A stretch of 64,000 bases of DNA from Streptomonospora nanhaiensis (lineage in GTDB: Bacteria; Actinomycetota; Actinomycetes; Streptosporangiales; Streptosporangiaceae). The translations under genes and the position numbers were made by a program. The notes below the pieces were generated by a model, which worked only from the letters and a program-made list of their open reading frames with translations, made no database searches and was not told the origin of the DNA. Positions 16,691 through 24,794 of the stretch are shown here, piece after piece. Every line of letters begins with the position of its first letter. Within the stretch, counting starts at the first letter, position 1. The stretch is from NCBI RefSeq assembly GCF_013410565.1, contig NZ_JACCFO010000001.1, forward strand, positions 3,658,001 through 3,722,000, given 5' to 3'.

Positions 16691-16763
16691 GCACTCGTAG
16701 CTCAATGGATAGAGCATCTGACTACGGATCAGAAGGTTGGGGGTTCGAATCCTCCCGAGTGCG
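16691..16763 (+). tRNA. tRNA-Arg (anticodon ACG)
   Basis: Full cloverleaf: acceptor arms GCACTCG (16691-16697) and CGAGTGC (16756-16762), anticodon stem CTGA/TCAG around the loop CTACGGA, and a T arm GGGGG-TTCGAAT-CCTCC. CCA is not encoded. The anticodon ACG, read as inosine, decodes CGN Arg codons. tRNA-Arg genes are common integration sites, and an accessory region follows it. Confidence 0.95.
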
Positions 16764-16780
16764 CAACGCGCAAGCGCAGC

Positions 16781-17179: not shown

Positions 17180-18054
17180 GTCCTGTTTTTTGAAAGGTCT
17201 GCGGGGCGGGCTGGTCTTCGGTAATCCTTGGGATCCATGGTCCGACGCCATGAACTCACCGAGGCCGAGTGGGACCTGCTCGCCCCGCTCATGCCCGCCC
17301 ACCCCCGCAAAGGCAAGCGGTGGGCCGACCACCGCCGCGTCATCAACGCCATCCTCTACCGCACCAGGACAGGCATCCCCTGGCGCGACCTGCCCGAACG
17401 CTACGGCCCCTGGGAAACCGCCGCCGGACGCCACCGCCGCTGGTGCCTGGACGGCACCTGGCAGCGCATCGCCGACCGGCTGCGCATCGACGCCCTCACC
17501 GGCGCCGAACTCACCGCCGGTATCGACTCCACCGTGATCCGCGCCCACCACCACGCCGCCGGAGCCCCAAAAAAGGGGAGGCGGCCCGGGACGAAGGGGA
17601 CAGGGCCCAAGCACTCGGGCGCTCGCGGGGCGGCTGGTCCACCAAGCTCCACCTGATCGCCGACACCCGCCGGCGGCCGCTGGTCCTGGCCCTCACCCCC
17701 GGCCAGCACGCCGACACGGTGATGCTGCGGCCTCTGCTGGAGCGGCTGCGCCTGGCGCGCTCCGGGGGGCGGGCGCGCACCCGCCTGGACCGGTTGCTGG
17801 GCGATAAGGCCTACTCCAGCCGCGCCAACCGGTCCTACCTGCGCCGGCGCAAGACCAAGGCGACCATCGCCGAGCCCGCCGACCAGCGGGCCAACCGGCT
17901 GCGGCGCGGTTCGGCGGGCGGCAGGCCCCCGTCCTTCGACCGGGAGGCCTACCGCTTGCGCAACACCGTCGAGCGCGCGATCAACCTGCTCAAGCAGAAC
18001 CGCGCGGTGGCCACCCGCTATGACAAGCGGGCCGTGATCTTCAACAAACACTGC
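17180..18054 (+). mobile_element. IS5-family element (IS427-like), about 875 bp
   Basis: A single transposase region is bounded by CTAG on both sides (17176-17179 and 18055-18058). The ends are imperfect inverted repeats: GTCCTGTTTTTTGAAAG on the left and, read inward, GCAGTGTTTGTTGAAGA on the right, with TGTTT-TTGAA shared. Length, CTAG/TA target and the split transposase fit the IS427 group of IS5. The transposase lacks the usual last 20 or so residues, so the right end may instead be a deletion that only looks like a repeat. It abuts the stump of a carbamoyltransferase gene. Confidence 0.65.
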
Positions 18055-18189
18055 CTAGGGCGGGGGCGCGCACCCCGGTGGAGTGGCGCCGACGGTTCAC
18101 CCGCTCCTCCTCCACATGGGCCAGGACGCGGCCGTCCTCGTCGACCAGGCAGGCGGCCGGGTCGTGGTAGACGGTGCAGCCGGCGTTGA
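17237..18189 (+). CDS. IS5-like transposase made by -1 frameshifting
   Basis: The first frame (17237-17656) gives the N-terminal domain (LTEAEWDLLAPLMP; GIPWRDLPERYGPWETAAGR; first catalytic Asp in TAGIDSTVIRAH). The second frame continues with RGGWSTKLHLIAD, the second Asp in LLGDKAYSSR and the Glu in RNTVERAINLLKQNRAVATRYDKR. They join at A AAA AAG (17569-17575), whose zero-frame reading is exactly the classic -1 slippage heptamer, followed by a GGCCC/GGGCC stem. The fused frame runs past the right end of the element and stops at 18189, so about 45 residues come from flanking DNA. Confidence 0.75.
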
Positions 18190-18214
18190 CGCCGAGGATG
18201 TAGTTTCTGCTCAT
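18041..18214 (-). pseudogene. Carbamoyltransferase N-terminal stump
   Basis: The first 45 residues (MSRNYILGVNAGCTVYHDP, then DEDGRVLAHVEEERVNRRRHS) match the start of NodU/CmcH-type O-carbamoyltransferases, including the ILGVNAG and EEER-N motifs. The reading frame then leaves the family at the IS boundary and stops within the IS. The remaining 500 or so residues are missing, and none are seen on the other side of the IS. The ATG overlaps the glycosyltransferase stop (ATGA), so it was the second gene of a glycosyl/carbamoyl tailoring operon. Confidence 0.75.
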
Positions 18215-19567
18215 CGTGATCCTTTCCCGGCCACCGTGCGCGCGGCCGCGCTGCGGGCGATAGCGTCGCTGTAGCCGTCGAACATGGCTTCGAGGGAGAG
18301 TTGGCGGGCGCGGGCGCGGGCCCGCCGCGCCGATGCGGGCCCGGGCACGGTCATCGGTCAGGAGCCGGTGCAGCGCCTGGGCGAGGGCGGCCGGGTCGCG
18401 CGGGGGCACCAGCAGTCCCGAGACGCCGTGGTCGATGTACTCGGCCGGGCCGCCGTGGGCGGTGGACACCACCGGGACGCCGGCCAGCATCGCCTCGACG
18501 TTGGCGTAGCCGAACGGCTCGGGGGCTCGGCTGGGCAGCACGGCGATGTCGGCGCCGGTGTAGCAGGAGGCGACCTCCTCGGCGTCGAGTTCGTCGAGCA
18601 GCACGACGCGGCCTTGCAGACCGGACCGGGCGATCATGGCGGCCAGGTCACGGCTGTAGTGGGGGGTGCGGGTGTCGACCATGCCGGCGCCGTTGAAGAC
18701 GACGACGGCGTTGTCAAGTTGCCCGCGGTCGTTGAGCAGGCGTGCGGCCTCGATGACGTCGGCGTGGCCTTTCCAGGGGACGCGGCGGGCCGACACCAGC
18801 ACCACGCGTCCTGGGGGCAGGCCGTTGCGGGCGCGGACCCGGTCGAAGACTCGCCCGCGTCGCGCCAGGTCCAGCCGCTGTTCGAACCGGCGGGTGTCCA
18901 GGCCGTTGAGGACGGTGCGCACCGCCCAGCCGGGGACCCCGGCCGCCACCAGGGCGCGGCGGATCGAGTCCGAGACCGCGATCAGTTCCAGTCGGCGCCC
19001 CTGCGCGATGCGCTGGGCCAGGTAGGCGAAGCGGCTCTGGGTCCCCTCGGCGTCATGGATGACGCCGGTCACCGCGACCTCGCCCAGGCCCCCCAGCAGC
19101 CCCCACTCCTCGGCTTTGAGCACGCCGACCAGGGGGTTGATGTTTTGCGCCAGCAGGATGGGGATGGCGGCGGCGTGCACGGCGTCGGCGTACTGCTGGG
19201 CCAGACTGCGCCACACCGGGTTGGCCGGGTCGGTGATGGTGGCCTCGAAGTAGTGGTGGACGCGGTGGGGGCATTTGGCCCCGGTGACGGGGTCGCGCAG
19301 GTACTGCGGCAGGGCCGAGGCGATGCCCCACAGCGGCGCGGCGAGCCCCTCGGGCACGAGAAGGGTGCCCTGGGGGCCGGGGCGGGCGGCGCCGGTCTGG
19401 GTCAGGGCCAGCCGGGTGGCGGGGTGGCGGTCGGCGATGCCTCGGAGGAGGTGGTGGGTGTGCTCGACGAGTCCGGTCTGGCGGGCGGGTTTGGCCGTGC
19501 CGTCGGCGAGCGTGCCGCGCACGTCGTAGGTGAGCACATGGAGTGAATCGGGAAACGCGGGGACCAT
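18211..19567 (-). pseudogene. GT4-type glycosyltransferase with a late frameshift
   Basis: About 420 residues of a retaining GT4 glycosyltransferase: N-terminal acceptor domain, then VSARRVPWKGHADVIEAARL and the C-terminal nucleotide-sugar site APEPFGYANVEAMLAGVPVV with the conserved EPFG..E. At about 18321, in a GC-only repeat, one extra base moves the last 36 residues out of frame; restoring it gives RQLSLEAMFDGYSDAIARSA and a stop overlapping the carbamoyltransferase ATG. The catalytic part is intact, so this may be a natural inactivation, a harmless tail change or a sequencing error in the repeat. Start ATG 19567 has GGGAGGA. Confidence 0.75.
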
Positions 19568-19724
19568 GGTGTCCTCCCACCGGCGTCGGGTAGTCGCGAC
19601 GCCACCCAGCCTCCCGCCGCGCGGCCGGCCCGTCATGATGGCGTTTCGGGAAGGGAGCGGAAGATCAGGGAAGACCGCGGAAGAAGCAGTGGCCGCCCCC
19701 GGAGCCAAGAGCGAGAATCCCGTC

Positions 19725-20861
19725 ATGGCCCCGTCGTCTTGGCCCCACCGCATCCAGCGCGCCCGACGCGACCGCGGGTGGGGTGTGCAGCGCCTGGCGC
19801 GGGAGCTGCGCAAGGCCGCCGGCCCCGAGAGCGCCACCACCGACAGCCTGATGCGCAGCATCCGCAACTGGGAGAACGGGCTTTACGTTCCCTCCGAACG
19901 AAACCGGCTCCTGCTGCACCGCGTCTTGGACATCGGCGTCGAGGACACCGCCCCCACCCCACCCCTGCCTCCCGACGCGTTGCGCCGCAGCGGTGAGGGG
20001 GCCGAGGAGGAGCTGCGCCGGACCACCGCCGACCTGATCCGCCTTGACGGAATGCACGGCGGCGGCGCCGTCGTCGACCTCGCGGTGCGCGCCGCCAACC
20101 GGGCCCGCGACACGGCCGCCTCCTCTGACGAACGGGGGCTGCGCGGCCGCCTGTCAGCGGTCAGCGAGGCCGAGCAGGTCGCCGGGTGGGCGGCCTACGA
20201 CGCCGACCGCCAGGACCTGTGCGCACATCTCACCTCGCGCGCCCTGCAAACGGCCGCCCTGGCCGGCGACAGCTCTGCCGAACTGATGGCGCTGTCGCAG
20301 ATGGCGATGTGGGCCGTGCAGACCGGGGAGGCCTCCTGCGCCCGCCAGACCAGTGAACACGCCCTGGCCCGGGAGTTGCCGCCCCGTGTGCGGGTGCTGT
20401 TCGAGGTGAGGCTGGCACGCGCGCTGGGGCTGCACGGCGAGCGCATCCGAGCCCTGGCGATGATCCGCCAGGCCCGCGCACGGTTCGACGACGGCCCCTC
20501 GCGCCACGACCCGGCCTGGGCGTGGTGGCTCGATGAGGGCGAGCTGACCTGGCACCACGGCATGATCCACGCCAGCATGGGCGAGTGGGGCCAGGCCGGT
20601 GAGCTCTTCGCCGCCGCCTGCGCCCATCGCCGCCCGGGACGGGGGCGCTACAACGACGCCGTCCACCTGTCCGCGGCTCTGGTACGCACACGGCAGTGGG
20701 CCGAGGCCGAACGCGTGGTCGTTCAGGACGTGGCCCAAACGGCTCCGCTCATCACCTCCCTGCGTATCCGCCATCTCCTGGCCAGGATCACCGCCGTGGT
20801 CCCCGCTGAGCCCCGCACCGACACGCTCGGCCAGGCGCTGCGCGCAGCACTCCGATCATGA
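19725..20861 (+). CDS. XRE-family regulator with TPR-like C terminus
   Basis: A 378-residue protein. The N terminus (RIQRARRDRGWGVQRLAREL, then MRSIRNWENGLYVPSERNR) is an XRE-type DNA-binding domain; the remaining 300 residues are helical, TPR-like repeats (LMALSQMAMWAVQTGEASCA). This layout is typical of actinobacterial regulators next to secondary-metabolite operons. It is divergent from the glycosyltransferase (157-base gap) and 172 bases upstream of the lasso precursor, so it is the likely cluster regulator. Earlier in-frame ATGs exist at about 19636-19639; I prefer 19725 because the XRE homology begins there. Confidence 0.75.
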   Translation: MAPSSWPHRIQRARRDRGWGVQRLARELRKAAGPESATTDSLMRSIRNWENGLYVPSERNRLLLHRVLDIGVEDTAPTPPLPPDALRRSGEGAEEELRRTTADLIRLDGMHGGGAVVDLAVRAANRARDTAASSDERGLRGRLSAVSEAEQVAGWAAYDADRQDLCAHLTSRALQTAALAGDSSAELMALSQMAMWAVQTGEASCARQTSEHALARELPPRVRVLFEVRLARALGLHGERIRALAMIRQARARFDDGPSRHDPAWAWWLDEGELTWHHGMIHASMGEWGQAGELFAAACAHRRPGRGRYNDAVHLSAALVRTRQWAEAERVVVQDVAQTAPLITSLRIRHLLARITAVVPAEPRTDTLGQALRAALRS

Positions 20862-20928: not shown

Positions 20929-21033
20929 CTCTGGCCTGTTCCGGCCACATCGTCCGAACCGCTGCGCGGTCGCCCTCAACCCGGGAATGCTGCTGGTGGC
21001 CCGTGCCCTGAGTCCGCACCGAGAAAGGCCGCC

Positions 21034-21213
21034 ATGACCACCGAACCAGCACCCGCCCCGCCGGCCGACGAATACGAACCGCCGCGCCTGACCGAGGTCG
21101 ACGGCTTCGCCGCGATGACGCGCGGCCAGTACGCCTCCGAACAGGCTGACGACAGCACCAACGGGGGCTACTGGTCCCAGCCGGTGGGCGGGACCTCCCC
21201 CCGCCTGTGGTGA
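21034..21213 (+). CDS. lasA: Lasso peptide precursor
   Basis: A 59-residue precursor. The leader (1-30) contains YEPPRLTEVDGF, the Y-x-x-P-x-L motif bound by the RRE protein, and ends in M-T-R with the conserved Thr at position -2. The predicted core is residues 31-59: Gly1 as ring amine, Asp9 as the only acidic residue at a position (7-9) usable for the macrolactam, then Asp10-Ser11, Asn13-Gly14, and aromatic Tyr16 and Trp17, ending PRLW. At 29 residues the core is long for a lasso peptide. The stop overlaps the cyclase start. The core begins GQYASEQAD. Confidence 0.88.
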   Translation: MTTEPAPAPPADEYEPPRLTEVDGFAAMTRGQYASEQADDSTNGGYWSQPVGGTSPRLW

Positions 21214-22991
21214 CCCCCCTTCCCGGTCTGCGGGGAGCCTGGTGGCTGGCGCTGCCGCGCACCGCCGCCAACGAGCTGGAGCACCACGCCCCGGTCGTCA
21301 CCCGCCACCCGTGCGGTCGGCCCTGGGTGCTGGGCGCGCCGGGCCCGGTCACCACGGCCGGGGCCGGCGCGGTCAGGGCCGTGGCCATCGGCGAACTCCT
21401 GGCGCAGGAAGGCGAGTTCGCCGCGGCGCTGCGCGCCGCGGCCGCGTGCGGCGACTTCGATGCGCTGATGGGTTTCCCCGGCAGCTACACGGTGCTGGTC
21501 AGCGCGCCGGGCCGCATGCTGCTCTACTGCGACGCCGCCGGGCTGCGGCCCCTCTACACCGCCCGCTGCGCGCACGGGGTGGTGGCCGGCGACCGGGCGA
21601 GGCTGCTCGCCGCTCTGGCCGGCGCCGGCTTGGACGAGGTGTGGGCGGCGGGACGCTTGTGCGCCCCTGATGTGCCCTCGGCCATCCGCACGACGCGGAG
21701 CCCCTACCGGGGCGTGGCCCCGGTTCCGGCGGGGTGTCGCGCGGTGCTGGGCGCCGAGGAGCCGCGGGCGCGCATCGCCCGCTACTGGCACCCGCCCGCC
21801 CCGGTCCTGCCGCTGGAGGAGGGGGCGCGGCGGGTGCGCGCGGCCCTGGCCGAGGCCGTCGCCGGGCGTGCGCGGCGCAGCCGGGACCCGGTCTGCGTTG
21901 CGCTGTCGGGCGGTATGGACTCGGCGGCGCTGGCCGCGCTCGCCGCAGAGGCGGTGGGCCCCGGCCGCCTGCGGCTGGTCACCCTGCCGTCGGCGGCCAG
22001 CGGCGACCTGCCGTGGGCCCACAAGGTCGCCGCCCACCTCGGCGCCCCGCTTGAGGTGCTCGATGACGCGCCCGACCTGTTCGCCGGTCTGCCCGGCGTG
22101 CTGCCGACCACCGATGAGCCGCCGCCGGCGGCCGGGGCCGCGCGCATCGCCCGCCTGGCCCGCGCCGCCGGCAGCGGCCCGCACCTCAACGGCCAGGGCG
22201 GCGATGAGGTGGTGGGGGTGCCGCTGGCGCACCTGCGTCACCTGGTGCGCGCGCCCCGGCGCGGGTTCCTGCGGCACCTGCGCGGCCACGCCGCCCTGCA
22301 CAACACCACCAGCGCCGCGCTCCTGCGCCACGCGCTGGCCCCCGCCTCCCCCTCGCGGTGGGCCCGCACGGCCGCCGCCCACCTGGACACCGCACCCGAC
22401 GCCCTCGGCGCGGCCATGGGCTGGGAAGCCCATCCCCGCCTGGCCTCGTGGGCGACCCTGCGCGCCCGCCGCCTGGTGGCCGCCGCCCTCACCCACGCGC
22501 CCCTCAACCCGTGGGCCGACCTGGCCACCCACGCCGCCCTGGCGCGGATCCGCACCTCGGCGGCTGCGGCCGCCACCTACCGCCAGGCCATGGCCGGCAT
22601 CGGCGGGCCCGAGCCGGCGTTCCCGTTCTTGGACCGGCCGGTGGTGGAGGCGTGCCTGGCGGTGCGCCCCGAGGCACGCAGTGACCCCTGGAGGGCCAAG
22701 CCGCTGCTGGCCGCCGCCCTGCGCCCCCTGCTGCCCGACCCGGTGCTGGAGCGCTCCACCAAGGCGAGCTACACCACCGACGTGCACCAGGGGTGGGCCC
22801 GCCACCGCTCCCACCTGCTCGGACTGCTGAGCGAGCCGCACCTGGCCCAGGCGGGCCTGGTCAACGCCGACCGCCTCCACGGCGCGCTGGAGCGCTGGGG
22901 TGCTGCCGGTCCGGCACCTGCCTACGTGACCGGCCTGGTGGGCCTGGAACTGTGGGCCCGCTCCGTGCTGGGGGAGGCGGTTGCGTGCTGA
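21210..22991 (+). CDS. lasC: Lasso peptide macrolactam cyclase
   Basis: A 593-residue asparagine-synthetase-like enzyme that activates the ring Asp/Glu side chain as an AMP ester and joins it to the core N terminus. The ATP pyrophosphatase loop SGGMDS is at residues 233-238 and a second conserved stretch GQGGDEVVG follows at about 330. The N-terminal glutaminase-like domain lacks a usable N-terminal Cys, as expected for lasso cyclases, which need no ammonia. GTG start overlapping the precursor stop; the next gene overlaps its end by 7 bases. Confidence 0.92.
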   Translation: MTPLPGLRGAWWLALPRTAANELEHHAPVVTRHPCGRPWVLGAPGPVTTAGAGAVRAVAIGELLAQEGEFAAALRAAAACGDFDALMGFPGSYTVLVSAPGRMLLYCDAAGLRPLYTARCAHGVVAGDRARLLAALAGAGLDEVWAAGRLCAPDVPSAIRTTRSPYRGVAPVPAGCRAVLGAEEPRARIARYWHPPAPVLPLEEGARRVRAALAEAVAGRARRSRDPVCVALSGGMDSAALAALAAEAVGPGRLRLVTLPSAASGDLPWAHKVAAHLGAPLEVLDDAPDLFAGLPGVLPTTDEPPPAAGAARIARLARAAGSGPHLNGQGGDEVVGVPLAHLRHLVRAPRRGFLRHLRGHAALHNTTSAALLRHALAPASPSRWARTAAAHLDTAPDALGAAMGWEAHPRLASWATLRARRLVAAALTHAPLNPWADLATHAALARIRTSAAAAATYRQAMAGIGGPEPAFPFLDRPVVEACLAVRPEARSDPWRAKPLLAAALRPLLPDPVLERSTKASYTTDVHQGWARHRSHLLGLLSEPHLAQAGLVNADRLHGALERWGAAGPAPAYVTGLVGLELWARSVLGEAVAC

Positions 22992-23245
22992 GGCTGCCCG
23001 ATCACGTTGCCCTGACGGCCACCGGCGACGGCGCGATGCTGCTCGACACCCGGACCGGGCGCGTGTTCCACCTCAACACGACCGGGCACCACGCCCTGCT
23101 GGGGGCGCTGGCCGGCGGGCCCGACGGTGCGGCGCGGCGGCTGCGCGAGCGCTACGGCATCACCGCTGAGCGCGCCCGCAGCGACGCCGCCGCCGTCCTG
23201 GCCGCACTCGCCCAGCACCATCTCCTCGTGGAGAGTGCGCTGTGA
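22985..23245 (+). CDS. lasB1: Lasso RRE protein (PqqD-like B1)
   Basis: An 86-residue PqqD-like RiPP recognition element that binds the leader and presents it to the protease. The three-strand plus helices pattern is visible: VALTATGDGAMLLDTRTGRV, FHLNTTGHHALLGAL, then RRLRERYGI and a C-terminal helix ending LLVESAL. It is a separate protein from the protease, as in actinobacterial lasso clusters. It overlaps both neighbours. Confidence 0.9.
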   Translation: MLRLPDHVALTATGDGAMLLDTRTGRVFHLNTTGHHALLGALAGGPDGAARRLRERYGITAERARSDAAAVLAALAQHHLLVESAL

Positions 23246-23682
23246 GCGTCGAGGTGGTCCTGCGGAGCCCGGGCCACCCGCCCAATCTCACCCGGCGCCT
23301 GCACGCCCTGGCGGCGGTGGCGGCGGCCCGGGTGCTGCTCGCCGCCGCCCAGGGGCGCCCGGCACGCCTGCACTCGGCGTTGGCGCGCCTGCTCGCCGGC
23401 GCGGCGCCCGCCTCACCCGCTGCGGCCGGTGCCGCGCACGACGCCGTGGTCGCCGCGAGTCTGCGCTGCGCCGGCCCGCACGGCTGCCTGCTGCGGTCGG
23501 TAGCCGTGGCGCTGCTGTGCCGCGCCTGGGGCGGCCGCGTCCGCTGGGTGGTGGGGTTCGCCTCGCCACCGCCCGCCTCCCACGCCTGGGTGGAGACCCG
23601 GGAGGGGCCCGTGGGCGAGCCCGAGGACCCAAGAACCGCCTTCACCCCCGCACTCACCACCGACGAGGAGCCTTCACCGTGA
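23242..23682 (+). CDS. lasB2: Lasso leader peptidase (B2)
   Basis: A 146-residue transglutaminase-like cysteine protease that removes the leader. Cys82 lies in GPHGCLLRSVAVALLCR and His114 in SHAWVE, the usual catalytic pair; the acidic third member is probably in GEPED near residue 125. The N-terminal third is helical. GTG start overlapping B1; the methyltransferase start overlaps its stop by 4 bases. Confidence 0.9.
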   Translation: MSVEVVLRSPGHPPNLTRRLHALAAVAAARVLLAAAQGRPARLHSALARLLAGAAPASPAAAGAAHDAVVAASLRCAGPHGCLLRSVAVALLCRAWGGRVRWVVGFASPPPASHAWVETREGPVGEPEDPRTAFTPALTTDEEPSP

Positions 23683-24794
23683 CCACGGCACCGGCCGCGA
23701 TCCACCAGCGCCTGCGCGACTACGCCGACCGCCTCGCCGAGCAGGGGGCGCTTGCCACCGCCGGCGTGCGCGACGCCTTCGCCCGCGTTGCTCGGCACCG
23801 CTTCATGGAGGCGTTCTACTTCCGGGGTGAGCGCTACGAGGTCCCCCAGGACGCCCTGCCGTCCGAGGAGGTCCTCGACATCGTCTACAGCGACGCGTCG
23901 CTGTTGACCATCATGCCCGCCGACCCCCAGGAGCCCGCGTCCTCCTCCAGCTCCCCCCTGGTCATGGGGCCCATGCTGGAGGCACTGGACCTGCGGCCGG
24001 GCATGCGGGTCCTGGAGATCGGCGCGGGCACCGGATACAACGCGGCGCTGATCGCCGCCGTCACCGGCGCCGAGGTCCTCACCGTGGAGGCCGGCGCCCA
24101 GGCGGCGGCCGGCGCGGCGGCCGCCGTCAGCCGCCTCGGCTTGGAGGACCAGGTCCGCGTCGTGCACGGCGACGGCTACCTCGGCCACCCCGATACCGGG
24201 CCGGGCGCCTTCGACCGGATCATCGCGACCGTGGGCATCGCCGGGGTGCCCCCGGCCTGGTTCGACCAGCTCGCCCCCGAGGGGTTCGTCCTGGCCCCCC
24301 TCGCCCACGCCGGCGTGCACCCCGTGATGAAGGTGCGGCCCGATGGCACCGTCGGGGTCTGCCTGTGGGCCGACTTCATGCCCGCGGTGGGGCCGCTGCG
24401 CCCCGCCGAAGCCGCGGGCCGCACCCCCGGGGCCACCCTCCAGGGAGACCCCGCCACTGTCCCCGATGTCGTGCCACTGCTGGGCGACGCCTACAACGAC
24501 GCCTGGTTCTCCCTGGGCGCGGGCGAGGAACGCGTCACCCGCGCCTACCTCGCCGGCACCGACCCCCTCGGGGGCATGTGCGCCCTGGTCGCCGACGACT
24601 CCCGCGCCTGCTGGCTGCGCACCGACGGCTCGCTGATGCACACCGACGCCGCCACCGCCCAGGACATGGCCGCGCTGCTCACCGCCTGGGACAAGGACGG
24701 CCGCCCGATCGCACAGGCCTGGAGCGCCCGGCTCCGGCCCGCCGCCACACGCGATCCCCTGCTCGTCCCCGCCGAGTGGTCCCTCACCCGCTGA
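23679..24794 (+). CDS. PIMT-type lasso peptide O-methyltransferase
   Basis: A 371-residue SAM methyltransferase of the protein-L-isoaspartate O-methyltransferase family. The SAM site VLEIGAGTGYNAALIAAVTG lies at about residues 112-131 and a C-terminal extension of about 130 residues is present, longer than in housekeeping PIMT. In lasso clusters with such enzymes (cellulonodin-2 of Thermobifida cellulosilytica, lihuanodin) the folded lasso is methylated on an Asp, and the ester closes to a stable aspartimide. Position as last gene of the overlapping operon shows it acts on this peptide. The target residue is unclear because the ring has no Asp besides Asp9. Confidence 0.88.
   Translation: MTTAPAAIHQRLRDYADRLAEQGALATAGVRDAFARVARHRFMEAFYFRGERYEVPQDALPSEEVLDIVYSDASLLTIMPADPQEPASSSSSPLVMGPMLEALDLRPGMRVLEIGAGTGYNAALIAAVTGAEVLTVEAGAQAAAGAAAAVSRLGLEDQVRVVHGDGYLGHPDTGPGAFDRIIATVGIAGVPPAWFDQLAPEGFVLAPLAHAGVHPVMKVRPDGTVGVCLWADFMPAVGPLRPAEAAGRTPGATLQGDPATVPDVVPLLGDAYNDAWFSLGAGEERVTRAYLAGTDPLGGMCALVADDSRACWLRTDGSLMHTDAATAQDMAALLTAWDKDGRPIAQAWSARLRPAATRDPLLVPAEWSLTR

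Follow-up and report, generated by a model that had tools for sequence, protein, structure and literature searches.

A PIMT-containing lasso peptide operon of Streptomonospora nanhaiensis and its predicted loop aspartimide

The stretch of DNA analysed here (the window) comprises 64,000 nucleotides of Streptomonospora nanhaiensis (contig NZ_JACCFO010000001.1, positions 3,658,001 to 3,722,000) and carries, at 21034-24794 on its forward strand, five genes in the order A-C-B1-B2-M, which encode a lasso peptide precursor, a cyclase, a leader-binding protein with a recognition element (RRE) of ribosomally synthesized and post-translationally modified peptides (RiPPs), a leader protease and a methyltransferase of the protein isoaspartyl methyltransferase (PIMT) type. 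On the basis of core conservation and of the kinship of M, the product is probably a lasso peptide with a Gly1-Asp9 ring, in which M converts Asp10-Ser11, immediately beyond the ring, into an aspartimide. The only two characterized aspartimide lasso peptides named in the accessible part of Zhu and Link 2026 (PMC13001092), cellulonodin-2 and lihuanodin, are both of the ring type, and the loop type is treated there as a predicted group. Having a single candidate Asp in its loop, the window peptide could fix the modification site for the whole loop group.

An earlier note, made from the sequence alone, had described a five-gene lasso operon with a PIMT. All five genes were indeed located, with overlaps of 4 (or 7) bases at A/C, 7 at C/B1, 4 at B1/B2 and 4 at B2/M, and the gene set was confirmed by family matches. 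The cyclase aligned with Asn_synthase (3.2e-41) and with the macrolactam cyclase model NF033561 (6e-73, 246 bits, below the cut-off of 300), B1 with PqqD (2.8e-9) and lasso_PqqD_Strm (5.5e-17, 61.8 bits, below the cut-off of 70), and B2 with lasso_biosyn_B2 (1.4e-20, 74 bits, above the cut-off of 33) and Transglut_core3 (5.7e-17). Among the lasso-specific models only that of B2 was thus matched above its curated cut-off, those of the cyclase, the RRE protein and the leader falling short. The third-position GC of the precursor frame is 0.87, against 0.91-0.95 in the other four genes. That this frame is not a chance one follows from its position and from its relatives, since a related leader and core stand ahead of these genes in ten further loci. 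The locus therefore combines the elements of a lasso gene cluster, namely a precursor with a leader and a Gly1/Asp9 core (an acidic residue at 7-9), a cyclase, an RRE protein and a B2 protease.

The core of 29 residues reads as previously given, from GQYASEQAD to PRLW. In an alignment of 11 loop-type cores, including that of the window, Gly1, Asp9, Asp10 and Tyr16 are invariant. Residue 6 is variable (Gly in six, Glu in two including the window, Asp in two, Ser in one), residue 8 is Ser in nine and Ala in two, residue 11 is Ser in nine and Gly in two, and residue 17 is Tyr in eight and Trp in three, the most frequent core ending being SDDSDAGQYY. The window core departs from the others at residue 12, which is Thr there alone and Asp elsewhere, which leaves Asp10 as the sole Asp of the window core apart from the ring-closing Asp9. 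It is also extended by eight residues (GGTSPRLW) compared with its nearest relative in genome G053, whose core stops after QPV. The calculated monoisotopic mass of the 29-residue core is 3113.375 in linear form, 3095.365 as a lasso and 3077.354 as a lasso bearing the imide ([M+2H]2+ 1539.684), the imide accounting for -18.011 Da. A 10-residue ring closed at Asp10 was considered and set aside, since lasso rings consist of 7-9 residues. The features of the operon and its surroundings are collected in the table.

Table. Features of the lasso operon and its neighbourhood (window coordinates)
Feature	Position	Strand	Basis or remark
Shine-Dalgarno-like GAGAAAGG ahead of precursor ATG	21020..21027	+	sequence reading
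Precursor gene A, 59 aa	21034..21213	+	counterparts in ten related loci; lasso_leader_L3 15.7 bits (cut-off of 19 not reached)
Leader of A, 30 aa	21034-21123	+	
Core of A, 29 aa	21124-21210	+	
Asp9, predicted ring-closing residue (isopeptide with Gly1)	21148..21150	+	Asp in 11/11 loop-type cores; equals ring Asp9 of characterized members (PMC13001092)
Asp10, predicted methylation/aspartimide site (Asp10-Ser11)	21151..21153	+	Asp in 11/11 cores; sole Asp other than Asp9
Thr12-Asn13-Gly14	21157..21165	+	core alignment; Asp12-(Ala/Gly)13-(Gly/Ala)14 in the other ten cores
Macrolactam cyclase C, 593 aa, GTG start 21210 (or 21207)	21210..22991	+	Asn_synthase, NF033561
B1, RRE/PqqD-like leader-binding protein, GTG start	22985..23245	+	PqqD, lasso_PqqD_Strm
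B2, leader protease (transglutaminase-like), GTG start	23242..23682	+	lasso_biosyn_B2, Transglut_core3
M, PIMT-type O-methyltransferase with C-terminal extension, 371 aa, GTG start	23679..24794	+	PCMT
S-adenosylmethionine (SAM)-binding GXGXG stretch of M, LEIGAGTG	24012..24035	+	within best-conserved stretch of loop-type PIMTs
WXXXGXP motif of RiPP-associated PIMTs, WDKDGRP, W337-P343 of M	24687..24707	+	motif as in PMC13001092
tRNA-Arg (acg), only tRNA in the window	16691-16764		upstream of insertion sequence and lasso operon
IS5-family transposase, two overlapping frames, the first with DUF4096 and the second with the DDE part	17228-18189		about 2.8 kb upstream of the operon
Group 1 glycosyltransferase open reading frame (minus strand)	18041-19867		
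NsdA-family tetratricopeptide-repeat regulator	19593-20858	+	same strand as the operon, immediately upstream; 129.6 bits, cut-off 75

The ten further loci with the A-C-B1-B2-M arrangement come from genomes of the class of the window and from plasmids of Prauserella and Streptomyces. With the 59-residue precursor as query, 18 of 100 genomes gave matches at E up to 0.1. The best three of the 19 non-self matches (G053, 3e-13; G080, 1.3e-5; G030, 5e-5), those that were checked for lasso genes, are each followed by a cyclase, B1, B2 and a PIMT, the cyclase of G080 being split over two frames in a locus that includes 391 N; the remaining 16 matches lie at E 0.036-0.098. A precursor match in a Hyphomicrobiales metagenome-assembled genome (L021) was rejected, as it sits within a long open frame of another protein, in a locus where the proteins of the window operon found no match.

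Seven of the ten relatives were recovered via the PIMT rather than the precursor. A profile built from four PIMTs (A1) at E up to 1e-60 matched 5 of 341 genomes in the family of the window, 3 of 58 relatives of G080, 5 of 394 genomes of the class, 3 of 246 genomes of the genus of G1054 and 3 of 35 genomes of the family of G791; at 1e-50 it matched one of 210 genomes of another order, where the PIMT is an orphan. These tallies count the seeds, come from overlapping sets and are lower bounds, because only part of each genome's first-look candidates (mostly 5) was scored. In the family-wide search (E up to 1e-60) the profile found nothing in five congeners of the window genome. A phylum-wide search with a single PIMT sequence at E 1e-50, too strict a limit, returned the window only (1 of 396 genomes). 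In a plasmid collection the window PIMT matched two records at 1e-30, Prauserella marina pPmarDSM45268 and a Streptomyces flavofungini plasmid, in each of which the operon genes carry lasso annotations, and in a phage collection no PIMT match was found at 1e-20.

The PCMT domain of M (4e-28) spans residues 17-217 and is followed by some 150 more residues that include the WXXXGXP motif; such a C-terminal extension and motif are characteristic of RiPP-associated PIMTs, and GXGXG is named as the SAM site in PMC13001092. The top match of the four-PIMT profile in the PDB was 1dl5 (9.9e-35), over profile positions 67-207 only. Among 13 loop-type PIMTs the exact WXXXGXP occurs in nine, that of the window included, and its W in all 13. 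This set includes two PIMTs lacking from the 11 cores, an orphan in G791 and one in G769, where no precursor was seen in a locus with 634 N. At gap-free columns identical in the other 12, M shows one departure (Leu to Ala at 275), compared with 0-5 in each of the others, where any row that has a near-copy in the set gets a low count on that account; M thus bears no sign of decay after the loss of Asp12. In addition to the lasso PIMT, the window genome (G000) has eleven PIMT-like matches at 1e-6, ten of which are rows of the tree below.

For comparison, the lasso protease family led to a ring-type operon with the core GAADDDTADMNTAKYY, which two genomes of a single genus carry. A search with the PIMT of this operon at 1e-35 hit 17 of 205 family genomes, those two among them. 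Nine of the 15 remaining genomes show a precursor with the other lasso genes, with DTAD at core positions 6-9 in four (G028, G053, G591, G603) and D(T/S)xD in five (G586, G764, G589, G588, G023). A subgroup of ring-type loci (L113, L115, L116, L117, L118) has cores of 15 residues, such as GKFAEDTKDQNRYFE, with Asp6-Thr/Ser7-x-Asp9 rather than DTAD. Both operon types occur in G053, the ring type as L105 and the loop type as L022.

A tree of 61 PIMTs groups the 16 ring-type rows in one clade (support 100/100) and the 13 loop-type rows in a separate one (99/94), with the window PIMT inside the latter and hence outside the ring-type clade. Nearer to the loop type are the orphan PIMT of G1421 and an 18-row clade containing graspetide-type proteins. 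A check against family models near the loop clade covered three rows of the 18-row clade, the second PIMT-like gene of L022 and the G1421 orphan; TIGR04188 (graspetide-type) was the top match of the three rows, one of them above cut-off (L054), and of the L022 gene. It was also the top NCBIfam match of the window PIMT (2.9e-49, 168 bits, below the cut-off of 380), although graspetide operons have an ATP-grasp ligase where the window has lasso genes. Constraining both lasso PIMT groups to a single clade was rejected by the approximately unbiased test with full-length columns (p-AU 0.0008) and barely with the catalytic part alone (p-AU 0.049); an earlier test with a single ring-type row gave p-AU 0.005. 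The separate clades suggest two recruitments. A second recruitment of a PIMT into lasso operons is thus likely but not proven by these sequence comparisons, given the narrow sampling, the long branches and the six of 16 ring-type rows unconfirmed in complete lasso loci. For ten of the 16, the locus also gave matches to precursor, cyclase, B1 and B2; L106 and L109 run off their contigs, and L107, L110, L112 and L114 have no B2 match or a weak or fragmentary one. Identical rows were merged (e.g. L075), the G769 protein was trimmed to its last 385 residues and ring-type proteins to 400, and very long PIMT-like frames with partial matches (L066, L067, L086) were omitted from the PIMT trees. In a cyclase tree of 22 rows, which left out the G080 cyclase and others in pieces, the ring-type, loop-type and PIMT-less cyclases separate; being unrooted with three groups, it is silent on the closest pair and was not used as evidence.

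Leader cutting, threading, the modification site and its chemistry are inferred from the protein families and from characterized relatives, as follows. B1 would bind the leader (YEPPRL) and present it to B2 and C, B2 would cleave after leader residue 30 (with Thr at -2), and C would close the ring around the tail by an isopeptide bond between the Gly1 amino group and the Asp9 side chain, Tyr16 and Trp17 being the likely steric locks. On the folded lasso, M would methylate Asp10, the first loop residue behind Asp9; attack of the Ser11 amide nitrogen on the ester, with loss of methanol, would then give the aspartimide, which may persist or hydrolyse to Asp or isoaspartate (isoAsp). Asp10-Ser/Gly11 resembles the ring-type site Asp6-Thr/Ser7 in its following residue. 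An isoAsp in the lihuanodin ring enlarges it by one atom, upon which the peptide unthreads (T7L variant; PMC13001092, PMC13352647). As Asp10 lies outside the macrolactam, isoAsp there would lengthen the loop and not the ring, so that hydrolysis to either product, judged from position only, should not unthread the peptide. If so, the loop imide might act as a harmless reversible switch, as opposed to a ring imide, where threading is lost in the isoAsp form. Taking phylogeny and site together, we tentatively suggest, as a scenario somewhat short of an even chance, that lasso peptides acquired PIMT-type Asp modification at least two times, the second time from a graspetide-like PIMT lineage, with the site shifted to Asp10 directly behind the isopeptide and the loop cycling between Asp, aspartimide and isoAsp without unthreading.

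Several observations weigh against an aspartimide at Asp10, one of which concerns Asp12. Its presence in 10 of 10 relatives means that it (in Asp12-Ala/Gly13) may be the real family target and the window peptide an exception. M could then act at Asn13-Gly14 after spontaneous deamidation to isoAsp/Asp13 via a succinimide, in the manner of a canonical repair PIMT. No sequence forms succinimides more readily than Asn-Gly, Thr12-Asn13-Gly14 is unique to the window core, and this site could even yield a succinimide without an enzyme. We regard this as unlikely, as Asp10 is just as conserved as Asp12 in the relatives and present in the window as well, M lacks a cluster of changes at conserved positions, and RiPP-associated PIMTs, unlike canonical ones, methylate Asp (PMC13001092, PMC9266682). 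The loss of Asp12 would also suit an M that stays in the operon but no longer modifies, leaving a plain lasso peptide; the orphan PIMT of the loop clade in G791, without lasso genes, implies that PIMT and lasso genes can separate. Such an outcome is improbable in view of the intact reading frame of M, its retained SAM-binding and WXXXGXP motifs and the 4-base overlap of its start with B2.

The earlier note had drawn an analogy to cellulonodin-2 and lihuanodin, and in its strict form M would act on Glu6 or a ring carboxylate. E6-Q7-A8-D9 does resemble D6-T7-A8-D9, and the G080 and G601 cores, with Asp6-Thr7-Ser8-Asp9, come close to the ring motif, which is a further point against the loop site. 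As drawn, the analogy lacks support, since the modified Asp6 and DTAD are absent from the window peptide and its PIMT falls outside the ring-type clade; with residue 6 so variable among the 11 cores, ring chemistry appears very improbable. Were the aspartimide only transient, the end product would carry isoAsp10, a beta-amino acid within the loop; this reading has the same site as the preferred one and overlaps with it. A site outside the ring would carry no unthreading penalty, but in water the cellulonodin-2 and lihuanodin imides are stable, and in buffer at pH 6-9 they hydrolyse to Asp (PMC13001092), which makes isoAsp10 a rather doubtful end point. The case for the Asp10 aspartimide is further tempered by four near-identical cores (S. 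flavofungini, G1054, G1089, G1068), which leave fewer than 11 independent observations, by the use of the window precursor as the query for locating precursors in unannotated genomes, and by an AlphaFold model of M from a single sequence that reached a predicted local distance difference test score of only 36.9 and was not used.

With respect to known systems, the ring motif of Zhu and Link 2026 is DTAD at 6-9 (Ser7 in seven cases), in which Asp6 is modified and Asp9 closes the ring (PMC13001092). Cellulonodin-2 and lihuanodin share with the window a PIMT with a C-terminal extension and WXXXGXP in a lasso operon and the Gly1-Asp9 ring (predicted in the window), but differ from its E6-Q7-A8-D9 with loop Asp10 and in their PIMT clade. 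The genome mining of Kim et al. 2023 had noted a second group of lassimiditides with a conserved Asp in the putative loop (PMC10787088), and one group 2 lassimiditide was noted in Actinoalloteichus caeruleus LHW52806 (PMC13001092). Compared by its description in the text, this group resembles the window in lacking the ring motif D(T/S)AD and in having a conserved loop Asp (Asp10 in all 11 cores) and a PIMT in the operon. From the other loop-type members the window differs by the loss of Asp12 and by its C-terminal extension relative to G053. Canonical repair PIMTs (Pcm; 1DL5 of T. maritima) share the PCMT domain with M, which sits in a RiPP operon and whose characterized RiPP relatives act on Asp and not isoAsp (PMC13001092). 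The claim of a new member of the lasso-PIMT class therefore stands in part: the core turned up nowhere else in the searches that were run, but it belongs with the loop-Asp group and not with the ring-type kind. As Kim et al. 2023 had noted this group before, the peptide adds a new member to a group that had been predicted. A full-text search with four core strings returned one unrelated paper only, and titles and abstract beginnings of open-licence literature revealed no experimental study of the loop-Asp group. Kim et al. 2023 may list the window precursor in their Dataset S1 or Figure S10b.

The genome context fits an operon that is gained and lost, or moves, as a unit. Compared with an 18-kb stretch around the nearest relative's operon, the DNA match is confined to 21093-24646 (in three pieces), an IS5-family element and a tRNA-Arg gene lie upstream, and G791 has a stretch collinear with G080 without the 2.7 kb holding A, C, B1 and B2, the PIMT being kept (L036 429-2009); another 0.4 kb upstream differs too, and an assembly fault is possible there. 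The tRNA-Arg gene is a possible island attachment site, and the NsdA-family protein a possible regulator of the operon. The two frames of the IS5-family transposase may be joined by frameshifted translation. The last ~55 residues of the glycosyltransferase frame resemble the start of a carbamoyltransferase, presumably truncated at the side of the insertion sequence. The orphan PIMT of G1421 (L047 3218-4477, minus strand) is sister to the loop-type clade; no protein of the window operon was found near it, and its neighbours include oxidoreductase-like genes and a 375-residue frame that we take to be a PqqC-like oxidase.

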